DNA of 64,000 nucleotides from an uncultured Alphaproteobacteria bacterium (GTDB taxonomy: Bacteria; Pseudomonadota; Alphaproteobacteria; Rhodospirillales; Rhodospirillaceae): NCBI GenBank assembly GCA_902575965.1, contig CACGTM010000002.1:79547-143546 (forward strand), written 5' to 3'. The notes below the pieces were generated by a model, which worked only from the letters and a program-made list of their open reading frames with translations, was not told the DNA's origin and ran no database searches. Shown here in pieces: positions 43,120-53,122 of this stretch. Numbering within the stretch: position 1 is the first letter of the stretch; every line of letters starts with the position of its first letter. The position numbers and the translations under genes are program-made.

Positions 43120-44025
43120 TTATTTATTAAAACTTTTTTTTAATACTTTTGTGACCAACTCATCTAACTGCTCTAAGTCTGAATAGTAAAATGTTAGGCT
43201 TCCTCCTTTACCATCAAATTGAATGTTAACTTTTAAACCCAGTGTATCTTGAAGTTGCTTTTCAATAGCTATGGTATTTACATCTTTTTTATTTTTTTCA
43301 ATATGAATGGTGTTGCCTATACTATTATTCTTTGCAATCATTTGTTCTACTGCTCTGACTGATAGTCCTTTAGCAATAATTATTTTTGCAATGCTTAATG
43401 AGTTCTTTGCGCCAAGTAACGCCCTCGCATGACCCATTGATATTTTACCATCTTCTAAATATTTTTTTATTTGGGATGGTAGGTTTAACAACCTTAATAG
43501 GTTAGCTATATGTGAACGACTCTTACTAACCAAGTTGGCTATATCATTTTGGCTATGCCCGAACTGGTCAATTAGTTTTTTAAAACCTTCAGCCTCTTCT
43601 ATAGGGGTAAGATCAGATCTTTGAAGATTTTCAATTAGTGCTACCTCAAGAACTTCAGTATCTGATAAATTTTTTACCACTACAGGAATTTCATGTATCT
43701 TAGCGATTTGAGACGCTCTCCACCTTCTCTCACCTGCAATAATCTCATAATTGCCCGCATCACCTTCTCTTACTAATATAGGCTGAAGTAAACCACGCTC
43801 CTTTATTGACGAGGCAAGCTCGGTTATTTTTGTATCATTAAAGTATTTTCTCGGTTGTAAAGAAGAGGGATAAATTTTTTCAATTGGTAGAGTATTAAAA
43901 GCTTTGGGCTTAGAATCACTGTCAACTGATATAGATAGATTTTGCAAACTTAAGTCATTAGTCCCATCATTAAAGAGGGCATCTAAGCCTTTTCCAAGAC
44001 TATTTTTTGATTTTTTATTTGCCAT
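43120..44025 (-). CDS. parB: Chromosome partitioning protein ParB
   Basis: LGKGLDALF, YPSSLQPRKYF, IIAGERRWRASQIAKIHEIPV, ENLQRSDLTPIEEA. Confidence 0.97.
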   Translation of the reverse strand: MANKKSKNSLGKGLDALFNDGTNDLSLQNLSISVDSDSKPKAFNTLPIEKIYPSSLQPRKYFNDTKITELASSIKERGLLQPILVREGDAGNYEIIAGERRWRASQIAKIHEIPVVVKNLSDTEVLEVALIENLQRSDLTPIEEAEGFKKLIDQFGHSQNDIANLVSKSRSHIANLLRLLNLPSQIKKYLEDGKISMGHARALLGAKNSLSIAKIIIAKGLSVRAVEQMIAKNNSIGNTIHIEKNKKDVNTIAIEKQLQDTLGLKVNIQFDGKGGSLTFYYSDLEQLDELVTKVLKKSFNK

Positions 44026-44027
44026 GA

Positions 44028-44807
44028 TTAAATTACTTTTTCTCTTTTTAAAACTTCACTAGCAAGGTTTAAATAAGATTTTGCACCCCTAGATTGTAAA
44101 TCATATATTAATACAGGCTTTCCGTGTGAAGGGGCTTCTGAAATTGTTACATTTCTGGGTATTACAGTCTTATAAACCTTTGCACCGAAAAATTTTCTTA
44201 CATCTTTTTCTACCATTTCTGAAAGCTTATTTCTTTTATCAGCCATTGTAAGAACAATACCCTGAATTTCTAATAAATTATTATAACTGTTTTTAATTCT
44301 TTCTATTGTTTTCACTAGTTGGCTAAGCCCCTCAAGAGCTAAAAATTCAACCTGCAAGGGCACTAAAATACCACCCGAAGCGACTAATGCATTCAATGTT
44401 AAAAGTCCTAAGGATGGAGGACAGTCAATTAAAATAAAATCATAGTTAATTGATTCTCTTGTAAGGCTTTTTTTCAAGCAAAATTCTCTCTCATCAACAT
44501 CAATAAGTTCAAGCTCCGCTCCTGCTAAATCAATTCCTGAAGGCAAAATATCTAAATTAGGAACAGAAGTATTTTTTATTACATCTAAGATGCTTAGTTG
44601 GCCAATTAACATCTGATAAATGTTAATTTCTCTCTGGTTTGAGGGTATACCCATACTGGTGGAAGCATTTCCTTGAGGATCTAAATCGATAAGTAATACT
44701 TTTTTACCAACTGCAGCTAATGCCGTTCCAAGATTTACAGCTGTAGTAGTTTTTCCAACGCCACCTTTTTGGTTTGAGATGGATATTATTCTTAATCCTT
44801 TTGACAT
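44028..44807 (-). CDS. parA: Chromosome partitioning ATPase ParA
   Basis: SISNQKGGVGKTTTAVNLGTALA, LLIDLDPQGNASTSMG. Confidence 0.97.
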   Translation of the reverse strand: MSKGLRIISISNQKGGVGKTTTAVNLGTALAAVGKKVLLIDLDPQGNASTSMGIPSNQREINIYQMLIGQLSILDVIKNTSVPNLDILPSGIDLAGAELELIDVDEREFCLKKSLTRESINYDFILIDCPPSLGLLTLNALVASGGILVPLQVEFLALEGLSQLVKTIERIKNSYNNLLEIQGIVLTMADKRNKLSEMVEKDVRKFFGAKVYKTVIPRNVTISEAPSHGKPVLIYDLQSRGAKSYLNLASEVLKREKVI

Positions 44808-45485
44808 TCATCTACCTATAAATTTGGCTTCTCTTACTTCAATTATTCTAGAAGTTGGATTTGTTAAGCTTTTATATGTCTTAAAGTGAATTATCCATTT
44901 TTTTCTAGCTTCTTCTAATTCTATATTAAATTTATCTCCTTTAAAATAAAGCTGAAGAGTTTCTTTTCCTACGAATTTTCTTGATAATTCGAGTAACCTA
45001 TTTAATGGAGCAAGTGCTCTTGCAGTTACAATATCTACTTTAAATGGCTCCAATTCCTCAATCCTTGAATGATGAACTACAGCATTTAAACTTAGCGCCT
45101 TTATTACATATTTTAAAAAATTTGCTTTCTTTCCAACTGACTCAACTAAATGTACTTCAGGAGAACCTATAATAGATAGTATAATACCTGGGAAACCTGC
45201 CCCGGCCCCCATATCAATTACAACTTTTGATTTCAATGATACAAAATTTACAAGTTGAGCAGTATCAGCAATATGCCTCCACCAAATGTTTTTTATTGTA
45301 GCTTTTGATATTAAATTTATATCTTTATTCCAAGTTATAAGAATTTTCTCAAATTCCTTAAGCTTAGAAATTGCCGACTCCGTTGTGGAAAAAATTCTAT
45401 GAAATTCACTACTTGTGAAAGATTCTTTTTTCACGTGAAACATTTTTTCCTCAAAGTTAGGATTGTTGTGTTTCACGTGAAACAT
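44808..45485 (-). CDS. rsmG: 16S rRNA (guanine(527)-N7)-methyltransferase
   Basis: NLISKATIKNIWWRHIADTAQLV, VIDMGAGAGFPGIIL, TARALAPLNRLLEL; 1-nt TAATG overlap with mnmG. Confidence 0.94.
   Translation of the reverse strand: MFHVKHNNPNFEEKMFHVKKESFTSSEFHRIFSTTESAISKLKEFEKILITWNKDINLISKATIKNIWWRHIADTAQLVNFVSLKSKVVIDMGAGAGFPGIILSIIGSPEVHLVESVGKKANFLKYVIKALSLNAVVHHSRIEELEPFKVDIVTARALAPLNRLLELSRKFVGKETLQLYFKGDKFNIELEEARKKWIIHFKTYKSLTNPTSRIIEVREAKFIGR
45427..45442. promoter_or_regulatory. parS-like centromere site (TTTTTCACGTGAAACA)
   Basis: 15/16 match to the canonical TGTTTCACGTGAAACA palindrome. Confidence 0.85.
45469..45484. promoter_or_regulatory. parS centromere site, perfect (TGTTTCACGTGAAACA)
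   Basis: Exact 16/16 match to the canonical parS palindrome, next to parAB. Confidence 0.95.
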
Positions 45486-48798: not shown

Positions 48799-49779
48799 AT
48801 GTCAAAAAAAATAATAGTAAAAGAAAGAGGTGGACCAGACTCAATGAAAATTGTTGATAATGTCTTAAATGAAACGCCTAAGGATTGTGTAAAAATTAAA
48901 CATGATCTTATCGGAGTAAATTTTATAGATACTTATCATCGTTCGGGTTTGTATCCAATCGATACGAACTCTTTCACTCCTGGTATGGAAGCGATAGGAT
49001 ATATTACTGAAATAGGCGATAATGTGGAAGATTTTAAAGTTGGCGACAAAGTTTGTTACGGTAATGGTCCTATTGGTTCCTATTGTTCTGAAAGGATAAT
49101 GGAAAAAGAAACGGTCTTTAAAATACCCAATTATATAGACGATAAATCACTGGCCGGTTCTGTTCTAAGATACCTCACTGTTTGGTACTTAGTTGAAAAA
49201 CTATATAAATTAACAAAAGAAGATGTCGTTCTTTTTCATGCTGCAGCAGGTGGTGTTGGCCTTCTTTTTTGCCAATGGGTGAAGACAGTTGGTGCAACAA
49301 TAATTGGTACTGTAAGCTCAGATGAAAAAGGACAACTTGCCAAAAAGTTTGGTTGTGATTATGTAATCAACTATAAGAATGAAAACTTTCAGAAAGAAGT
49401 AAATAAAATAACAGACAAAAAAGGAGTGTCTGTGGTTTATGATGGAGTGGGTAAAAATACATTTCACGAATCACTTAAGTGTCTTAGCAAAAAAGGTCTT
49501 ATGGTTTCATTCGGAAATGCTTCTGGCCCGGCACCAGATTTAAATGTTAGCTCATTAGGTCCCTTAGGTTCTCTTTTTGTAACTCGTCCTACTCTTCTTG
49601 ATTATACAAATAATAGAAAGGATTTAGAAGAAGCTTTCCTTAAAATTTTTTCACTAATAAAAGATAAGAAAATTACTTCCAACGTTGGACAAGTTTACCC
49701 GCTTGAAAAGTGCTCGCTCGCACATCACGACTTAGAAAATCGTCTAACCAAAGGATCGACGGTTCTTAGTGTTAAATAA
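48799..49779 (+). CDS. Quinone oxidoreductase (zinc-independent MDR, QOR-like)
   Basis: GVNFIDTYHRSGLYP, HAAAGGVGLLFCQWVKTVGATIIGTVSSDEK. Confidence 0.92.
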   Translation: MSKKIIVKERGGPDSMKIVDNVLNETPKDCVKIKHDLIGVNFIDTYHRSGLYPIDTNSFTPGMEAIGYITEIGDNVEDFKVGDKVCYGNGPIGSYCSERIMEKETVFKIPNYIDDKSLAGSVLRYLTVWYLVEKLYKLTKEDVVLFHAAAGGVGLLFCQWVKTVGATIIGTVSSDEKGQLAKKFGCDYVINYKNENFQKEVNKITDKKGVSVVYDGVGKNTFHESLKCLSKKGLMVSFGNASGPAPDLNVSSLGPLGSLFVTRPTLLDYTNNRKDLEEAFLKIFSLIKDKKITSNVGQVYPLEKCSLAHHDLENRLTKGSTVLSVK

Positions 49780-49784
49780 TAGGG

Positions 49785-51041
49785 TCACTGATTCATTCTT
49801 TCAAAAAAATCAGCATTGTTTTTCGACTCCTTAAGTTTATCTATTAGAAACTCCATACCATCTTGAGTACCCATTGGATCTAGTATCCTTCTAAGCATCC
49901 ACATTTTAGATAAATTGGATTGATCTACCAGAAGCTCTTCTTTTCTTGTTCCTGACTTTTGTATGTCTATGGCTGGGAAAATTCTTTTGTCTGCAAGTTT
50001 TCTCTCCATAACTATTTCTGAATTACCTGTACCTTTAAACTCTTCAAAAATAACTTCATCCATTCTGCTTCCTGTTTCTATTAGGGCCGTGGCTATTATT
50101 GTTAATGAGCCACCCTCCTCAACATTTCTAGCTGCTCCAAAAAATCTTTTTGGTCTTTGCAAAGCATTAGCATCAACACCACCTGTTAATACCTTTCCCG
50201 ATGATGGTACTACTGTATTATAAGCCCTAGCTAATCTTGTTATTGAGTCCAACAAAATAACAACGTCTCTCTTATGTTCAACAAGTCTCTTTGCTTTTTC
50301 AATAACCATTTCGGCTACTTGAACATGGCGTGATGCTGGTTCATCGAATGTTGAACTAACAACTTCACCGTTCACCGTTCTATCCATATCAGTTACTTCT
50401 TCTGGTCTTTCATCTATAAGAAGGACAATTAGATAAACTTCCGGTTGATTTTTTGCGATAGAGTGAGCAATATTCTGAAGCATAACCGTTTTCCCAGCTC
50501 TTGGGGGTGCAGTCAGAAGAGCTCTTTGACCTTTACCTAAAGGTGATACAATTTCTATTACTCTACCTGTTATTTCTTTAGAGCCCGGATCTTCAATTTC
50601 CATTTCAAGTTTAGATTCTGGGTAAAGAGGAGTTAAATTATCAAAGTTTATTCTATGTCTTACTGATTCTGGGTCTTCAAAATTAACTTTATTTAATTTA
50701 AGCAAGGCAAAATATCTCTCACCATCTTTTGGTGAACGTATTTCACCCTCAACTGTATCACCTGTTCTAAGACCAAATCTTCTAACTTGATTAGGAGAAA
50801 CATATATGTCATCTGGACCAGATAAGTAATTAGATTCAGGAGAACGTAGGAATCCAAAACCATCCTGTAATATTTCAAGGACTCCGTCACCAACAATAGC
50901 TTGTTCGTTTTCTGCAAGCTTTTTTAAAATAGAAAATAACATATCCTGTTTTCTAAGGTTTGAGGCATTTTCGATACCCATATCCTCAGCAAAGGAAAGC
51001 AATTCCGGTGGAGATTTCTTTTTTAACTCTTTTAAATGCAC
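49785..51041 (-). CDS. rho: Transcription termination factor Rho
   Basis: [49 protein letters not shown]. Confidence 0.98.
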
Positions 51042-51451
51042 GATTTATATTGAAACTATTATAGAGATTGAGAATGAATTCATGGAGAGATTTAAATATT
51101 TATATACCGTTACAGAACAAAATATTATCTGTCAATAAAATTTTTTAATGAATTATATACTAATACTAAAAGAAATATAGATGTTGTTGTTGTTGTTAAT
51201 GTGAAAATAAAGGATTAAAACTTATAAAGAATAATAAAAAAGTAGATAATAGAAAAAGATAAAAATTTAAAGAATAAGATTATGAAATTAAACAATTATA
51301 AATAAAAAGAAAAAAACTCACATAATTAACATAATTAATGAGAAAATAGTTAACATTGGAAAAAAAGTGGATGAAATAAGCAAAAGTGTTTACAAAAATA
51401 GACTTATGAAAGAAAGGCTTTTTTTCCACAGGTTATAAAAAGATAAAAAAC
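51042..51451. other. Candidate chromosomal origin of replication (oriC) intergenic region
   Basis: About 410 bp non-coding, very AT-rich, between divergent rho and PPSR/RP001-family genes; DnaA-box-like TTTTCCACA at 51422-51430; tandem CATAATTAA repeats; parS/parAB about 6 kb away. Confidence 0.6.
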
Positions 51452-52264
51452 ATGTCAAATAAACATAATATTCATCTAATCTCAGATTCATCAGGAGAAA
51501 CAGTAAACGGAGTCGTTAGAGCATGCTTAGTGCAGTATGATCAAGAAATGGTACATCAACACGAATGGTGGTTGATAAGAACAGAACAACAAATGAAAAA
51601 GGCCTTGCAAGGTATAGAGAACCATCCTGGTATTGTGGTTTTCACATTAGTTGATCCAACAATAAAACTTCAACTAGAAGAAGGTTGCGAAAAATTGGGC
51701 GTCCCCTATATCTCTATTTTGGACCCAATCTTGAGTATTATGGACAATGCATTTAAATCAAAAGGTGATCATCAAATAGGAAAGCAACACAACCTAGATG
51801 CAGATTATTTTGAGCGAATAAAAGCGATTCAATTTGCAATGGATTTCGATGATGGCCAACGAATAACAATGATAGATGAAGCTGACATTGTTCTTGTGGG
51901 AGTATCGAGAACGTCTAAAACTCCTACGTGCATGTATCTTGCTAATAGAGGATATAAGGTCGCTAATATTCCATTGGTCCCTGGACAAACTCATTCGTCT
52001 GAAGTTTTCTCAAACCCTCACACTTTTTTCGTAGGATTAGTTTGTGATCCAAAAAATTTATCCGACATTAGACAAAACAGGCTGAAAATGATGAAGGAAG
52101 ATAGGCACATAGATTATGCAGATATGCAGTATGTAAAAGAGGAAGTGGCTAACTCAAGAAAATTATTTAGAAAGAATAATTGGCCTGTGATTGATGTAAC
52201 ACGCAAGTCTATTGAAGAAACTGCTGCATCTATAATACAGTTATATAATTCTAGAATAAATTAA
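51452..52264 (+). CDS. Pyruvate, phosphate dikinase regulatory protein (PPSR family, DUF299/RP001-like)
   Basis: HLISDSSGETVNGVVRACLVQYD ... VGVSRTSKTPTCMYLANRGYKVANIPLVPG. Confidence 0.93.
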   Translation: MSNKHNIHLISDSSGETVNGVVRACLVQYDQEMVHQHEWWLIRTEQQMKKALQGIENHPGIVVFTLVDPTIKLQLEEGCEKLGVPYISILDPILSIMDNAFKSKGDHQIGKQHNLDADYFERIKAIQFAMDFDDGQRITMIDEADIVLVGVSRTSKTPTCMYLANRGYKVANIPLVPGQTHSSEVFSNPHTFFVGLVCDPKNLSDIRQNRLKMMKEDRHIDYADMQYVKEEVANSRKLFRKNNWPVIDVTRKSIEETAASIIQLYNSRIN

Positions 52265-52276
52265 AAAGATATTTAG

Positions 52277-53122
52277 ATGAAAAAACCAGAATCAATAAAA
52301 TTAGCGGGTGTTTTAGGCAATCCAATATCACACTCACTGTCTCCGCACCTTCATGGGTTTTGGATTAATAAATATTCAGTTAATGGTTATTATATTCCTT
52401 TATTGGTTAATAGGACTGAGATAGGGAAATCATTAGATGCTTTAAAGACATTAGGTTTTCGTGGAGCAAATGTTACTATTCCATTTAAAGAGGAGGTAAT
52501 TAAATATATTGATTACATAAGCGAAACAGATGCAAAAATTGGAGCAGTAAATACTCTTTCAATAAACATCAAAGGAGAAATAACAGGGTTAAACACTGAT
52601 GTATATGGTTTTTTAAAAAACCTTGAAAAATCAATACCTCAATGGGAAAAGTTTGTAGATAATATTGTGGTGATTGGTGCAGGTGGAGCATCAAGGGCAG
52701 TTGTTTCTGCGCTAAAACATAAAAAGATTGAATCTAAAAAAATAGTAAATCGATCAGCGCAAAGAGCAAATTTTATTAAAGACCAAATCGATGAAAATCT
52801 AGAGATAATAAGCTGGAGCCAGCTAGACGAAGTTTTAGAAAACTGTGATTTATTAATAAACACTACTCCTTTAGGTATGAATGGTCAGCCCCCACTAAAT
52901 ATTAGGGTCGATTTGATGAATAAAGGCTCCATAGTTTATGATCTCGTGTATACCCCGTTAGAAACGAATTTAATAAAATCTGCAAAAGAAAATAATTTAC
53001 AAACTGTTAGCGGACTTGGAATGTTAATATTTCAGGCCATAAAAGGTTTCGAGGAATGGTTTGGAAAAAAACCTCAGGCGGATGAGGCAACAAGTTTATT
53101 CTTAAAAAGAATTCTTCAATGA
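52277..53122 (+). CDS. aroE: Shikimate dehydrogenase
   Basis: GVLGNPISHSLSPHLHGFWI, GANVTIPFKEEV, GAVNTL, VIGAGGASRAV. Confidence 0.95.
   Translation: MKKPESIKLAGVLGNPISHSLSPHLHGFWINKYSVNGYYIPLLVNRTEIGKSLDALKTLGFRGANVTIPFKEEVIKYIDYISETDAKIGAVNTLSINIKGEITGLNTDVYGFLKNLEKSIPQWEKFVDNIVVIGAGGASRAVVSALKHKKIESKKIVNRSAQRANFIKDQIDENLEIISWSQLDEVLENCDLLINTTPLGMNGQPPLNIRVDLMNKGSIVYDLVYTPLETNLIKSAKENNLQTVSGLGMLIFQAIKGFEEWFGKKPQADEATSLFLKRILQ

Follow-up and report, generated by a model that had tools for sequence, protein, structure and literature searches.

The 410-base gap between rho and PPSR (51042-51451) is almost certainly the start site of chromosome replication in this uncultured marine alphaproteobacterium. 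The explanation that we favour as a whole, and hold with high confidence, is that of a Caulobacter/Rickettsia-type oriC in which rho takes the place of hemE as a flanking gene and DnaA would open the DNA at a module of box-like and trio-like repeats. The gap had been put forward as a candidate oriC in the preliminary description of the sequence, and support for it came from synteny, the proximity of parS and parAB, the AT content and conservation of the gap, a GC-skew minimum in a related genome (G068) and the conserved box/trio-type module.

The rho-PPSR gap and its neighbourhood

The window, i.e. the whole stretch of 64,000 nucleotides that was analysed, covers C2:79547-143546 of a genome (label G000) that is assembled to 1.37 Mb in 65 contigs and is 58% complete. 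Contig C2 (143.5 kb) ends 12 kb to the right of the gap and also carries dnaA (C2:43188, ~88 kb left of the gap). The nearest named genome is that of the MAG Rhodospirillaceae bacterium MED667 (PPSR identity 83%). The gap is bounded by rho (49785-51041, minus strand, NCBIfam TIGR00767) and by PPSR (RP001/COG1806 family, 51452-52264, plus strand, NCBIfam PRK05339.1), the first gene of the aroE-coaE-dnaQ run; parB (identified by family match) and parA (by sequence) lie at 43120-44807 on the minus strand. The assignments of aroE, dnaQ and parB are NCBIfam matches, and secB, fxsA, tim44, mltA, smr and gidB are also found in the neighbourhood. Divergent flanks with all genes from rho to parB on the minus strand had been claimed before; the orientation of rho (minus) and PPSR (plus) stands, but an NADPH:quinone-reductase-like gene (48799-49779), located between mnmE and rho, is on the plus strand, opposite to its neighbours. 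In several related genera a Maf-like gene (recognized by sequence, e.g. L025:2301-2918) separates PPSR from aroE; the genus of the window has no such gene between the two (52264-52277).

The bounds given earlier for an AT-rich gap of ~410 bp proved exact. Its AT content is 80.5%, and nowhere else on the 143.5-kb contig does a stretch of 410 bp attain 80% AT. Comparison of the intergenic region in relatives, proposed earlier as a check, yielded 34 family genomes in which divergent rho and PPSR genes surround an orthologous gap of 410-690 bp with an AT content above that of its surroundings. The origins of Caulobacter and Rickettsia adjoin COG1806 (PMC1914354), and a Caulobacter-type origin is sought beside hemE or COG1806/PPSR in DNA with an AT content above that of the genome; the gap lies beside PPSR and is the contig's highest 410-bp stretch in AT content.

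The earlier placement of parS/parAB at ~6 kb was borne out by two parS sites 5.6 kb from the gap at the start of rsmG, one exact (TGTTTCACGTGAAACA, 45469-45484, in the rsmG 5' end) and one parS-like with one mismatch (45427-45442), which are the only sites on the contig within two mismatches of parS. The cumulative GC skew computed across 400 kb of G068, a member of a genus close to that of the window, reaches its minimum at a distance of 3.5 kb from PPSR and of 142 kb from dnaA; parS is 9.6 kb away. The GC skew of G042, a GC-rich relative, gave no signal. On C2 itself, part of a fragmentary assembly, the skew is lowest close to where the contig ends, 12 kb to the right of the gap, and the trend is consistent with that of a left arm.

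A module of box-like sites and trinucleotides

The single motifs described earlier were all found in place: the DnaA-box-like TTTTCCACA (51422-51430, plus strand; the aligned MED667 position holds TTGTCCACA), AGTGGATGA (51366-51374; on the minus strand the weak DnaA-box-like TCATCCACT with two mismatches, not kept in MED667), the exact tandem CATAATTAA x2 (51321-51338, plus strand, kept in part in MED667) and the (GTT)5 run (51183-51197), which is the only run of at least four GTT/AAC/TTG/CAA units on the 143.5-kb contig. The gap holds one site within one mismatch of TTATCCACA, and its five sites within two mismatches compare with 1.7 expected from shuffles (95th percentile 4), so that the clustering of DnaA boxes is weak by itself. 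Since there is this single site within one mismatch and no dense cluster anywhere else on C2, including near dnaA, box clustering is not diagnostic of oriC and we dropped it as proof. The strict DnaA-box criterion TTATNCACA had no match in the gap, in which TTTTCCACA occurs once. Searches of the gap for CtrA sites (TTAA-N7-TTAA), GANTC sites and the IHF site WATCAN5WTR gave none; the MED667 gap has one IHF site. A match elsewhere in the same genome (contig C11, 73% over 81 bp) was judged to be a chance effect of AT-richness.

The emphasis that had been put on scattered weak DnaA boxes missed the core: what is diagnostic is the (GTT)n array and the pair of box-like 9-mers that flank it (51172-51217 on the minus strand). 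Conservation around this run first became visible in an alignment of relatives, and the module is one of the islands kept relative to MED667. On the minus strand it reads TAATCCTTT-ATTTTCACA-TTAA-CAACAACAACAACATCTA..., i.e. a degenerate distal DnaA-box-like 9-mer (TAATCCTTT, 51209-51217; TAATCCCC[AG]-type in relatives), a proximal one (ATTTTCACA, 51200-51208; several relatives hold TTATCCACA there), 4 nt and C-initial triplets. The plus strand carries the DnaA-trio-like array 5'-TAG-ATG-TTG-TTG-TTG-TTG-3' (51178-51195; 3'-GTT x4-GTA-GAT-5'), which overlaps the (GTT)5 run. The proximal and distal boxes have three and four mismatches to TTATCCACA, respectively, and the proximal box of MED667 has two.

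A profile of the module that was trained on other genera only, with the genus of the window left out, found it in every rho-type gap examined, with 51172-51217 as the best site in the window's gap. It is the top site of that gap on the expected strand, with a score that none of 2000 shuffles of the gap reached; across 430 kb of its own genome it ranks 8th and is thus not unique by score alone. A profile of the boxes only found sites in relatives but was too weak alone to pick the site of MED667.

Of 66 family loci, 57 have the module (9+9+4 nt followed by trios) at the corresponding place and on the corresponding strand. Among the 57 are loci without rho upstream, in which the proximal box is sometimes exactly TTATCCACA (the left gene of the one that was checked is hemE-like by sequence), and spacing and strand are the same with rho as with hemE on the left. 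In a wider set, a profile blind to the centre and third bases identified 50 genomes with candidate sites of a score greater than 12, most of these genomes being spread across the class; two opposite-strand controls also exceeded 12. In relatives, of which the gaps of L025-L032 are examples, the trios have as their neighbour a conserved TAAGAATCT element that includes a GANTC (CcrM-type) site; this element is absent from the gaps of the window and MED667. A search for hemE (URO-D) found none in the window's genome (58% complete), MED667 and G068 (98% complete), and in the rho-type genomes G042 and G057 hemE is present on other contigs; hemE has moved away from the origin, and some lineages may have lost it. 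Several contigs with Rhodospirillaceae-like origins (L169-L183 and L205) are titled Candidatus Marinimicrobia and are probably mislabelled MAGs.

The most conserved island of the gap is a different one, of ~45 bp (51099-51143, minus strand), which contains TTGACA (51130-51135, minus) and is nearly identical in MED667. A consensus promoter scan did not report it as a promoter; it lies on the rho side and is probably the rho promoter or a leader control element. Such an island is what one would expect if the gap were only the divergent promoter region of rho and PPSR, with AT-richness and islands due to promoters. We nevertheless regard that explanation as very improbable, as the second island is a box-box-trio module of fixed spacing and strand next to either rho or hemE, and as promoters leave the skew minimum of G068 and the nearby parS sites unexplained. 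Equally improbable is a true origin at another place, e.g. at dnaA. In many bacteria oriC is located at dnaA, and the fragmentary state of the genome speaks for keeping this in mind, but the skew minimum of G068 lies at rho|PPSR instead of at dnaA, and C2 is devoid of a dense DnaA-box cluster in the vicinity of dnaA as elsewhere.

Trio sequence, the DnaA residue and origin opening

In the basal unwinding system (BUS) of Bacillus subtilis the central base of the trios is A; with T or G in its place, strand separation and initiation become weaker, and Asn187 of DnaA contacts this central adenine (PMC10721633); deviant trios without a middle adenine were suspected by the authors who described BUS elements (PMC8287927). 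The trios of the window (3'-GTT-GTT-GTT-GTT-GTA-GAT-5') are T-centred in the first five positions, and those of MED667 read 3'-GTT-GTT-GAT-GTT-GTA-GAT-5'. Among the 57 family sites the first trio keeps the 3'-G and the T at the third position, with a central T in 42 and a central A in 15. None of these 57 opens with three A-centred trios, versus 38 of 53 sites in the Reyranella-type set. In the DnaA of the window's own genome, as in the other family DnaAs read, Tyr is aligned to Asn187 of B. subtilis. Being T-centred, the array is a deviant DnaA-trio, and it would be read as such by this Tyr-bearing DnaA.

Position 187 is Asn in four Reyranella-type genomes, and in a sample of the class most alphaproteobacteria have Tyr there, seven have Phe and two have His, with Asn confined to the Reyranella type. 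A clean correlation of Asn/Tyr with A/T was rejected, as the residue is usually Tyr (in some cases Phe or His) in the alphaproteobacteria sampled and this state co-occurs with A-, T- and G-centred repeats. Because Asn was seen in one clade only and Tyr also goes with A-centred repeats, we offer the link between residue and base as a hypothesis, and the tie of the Asn187/Tyr state to the central trio base is only suggestive. Tentatively, and with somewhat less than even confidence, we propose that the trios of this family, and perhaps those of many other alphaproteobacteria, keep G and the third T but have a relaxed centre at which T or G can stand for A, together with Tyr for Asn187, and that the genus of the window with four GTT in a row is an extreme case.

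The T-rich repeat could be read in another way within an oriC, namely as single-strand motifs of the E. coli type that the H/B residues of DnaA bind after looping. The E. coli DUE uses TTGT and TTATT (PMC10316083), the array holds four overlapping TTGT, and T stands where a B. subtilis trio needs its central A. Yet, while the window shares with the E. coli DUE a T-rich single-strand repeat with TTGT, its module adjoins co-oriented boxes at a fixed 9+9+4 spacing, it is homologous to the GAT trios of Reyranella and the gap is without an IHF consensus; the trio mode is favoured on these grounds, and the E. coli-type reading seems possible but rather unlikely.

In the trio mode, and going by the sequence, spacing, strand, position, neighbourhood and conservation that were observed for module and gap, DnaA would bind the two co-oriented box-like sites (51200-51217, minus strand), from where an oligomer of ATP-DnaA would extend leftward over the plus-strand trinucleotide array (51178-51195). 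The AT-rich DNA beside the array would then be opened for helicase loading and the origin would fire at the gap, and TTTTCCACA at 51422 may serve as a distal recruiting box.

Relation to known origins

The oriC of Caulobacter (Cori) and Rickettsia, located between hemE and COG1806/RP001 (PMC1914354), resembles the gap in its boundary gene PPSR, its high AT content, its size of ~400 bp and the nearby parAB and parS. The window differs in having rho for hemE, no CtrA, IHF or GANTC site found and one box within one mismatch; several intracellular relatives likewise have few CtrA sites or none (PMC1914354). Reyranella and its relatives (the L187-L241 set, PPSR-upstream gaps that are not annotated as origins) have the module at the same side of the gap, on the same strand and with the same 9+9+4 spacing, but there the repeats (such as CTACTACTGCTACTACC) are canonical CTA repeats, i.e. 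3'-GAT-5' DnaA-trios, the left gene in R. massiliensis, the genome that was checked, is hemE-like by sequence, and DnaA has Asn at 187.

The likeness to the BUS and DnaA-trios of B. subtilis (PMC8287927, PMC10721633) consists of two co-oriented box-like sites, a short spacer, a conserved 3'-G trinucleotide repeat and adjoining AT-rich DNA, whereas in the window the first five trios are T-centred, the boxes degenerate, the spacer is TTAA and not GC-rich, and Tyr is at the Asn187 position. The BUS architecture comprises boxes, a gap of ~4 bp and trios, with 13 bp as the commonest box-to-trio spacer, and the published search rule asks for a box with at most two mismatches near at least three NAN trios, a spacer of at most 16 bp and co-orientation (PMC8287927). 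The module has the layout and co-orientation (9+9+4, same strand), but its boxes exceed the mismatch limit (three in the proximal, four in the distal one) and its T-centred first five trios leave it short of three NAN trios. Because the architecture is matched and the published sequence rule fails on box quality and central A, we describe the gap as an alphaproteobacterial oriC that would function in the manner of a BUS but has a variant of the repeat.

With this finding the origin is located for an uncultured marine lineage, and a conserved landmark becomes available by which oriC can be sought in alphaproteobacterial genomes that are fragmented. The finding further offers a natural set of T-centred trios combined with a changed DnaA residue, with which the sequence rule for origin opening, and the way in which DnaA reads origin DNA, would become directly testable.
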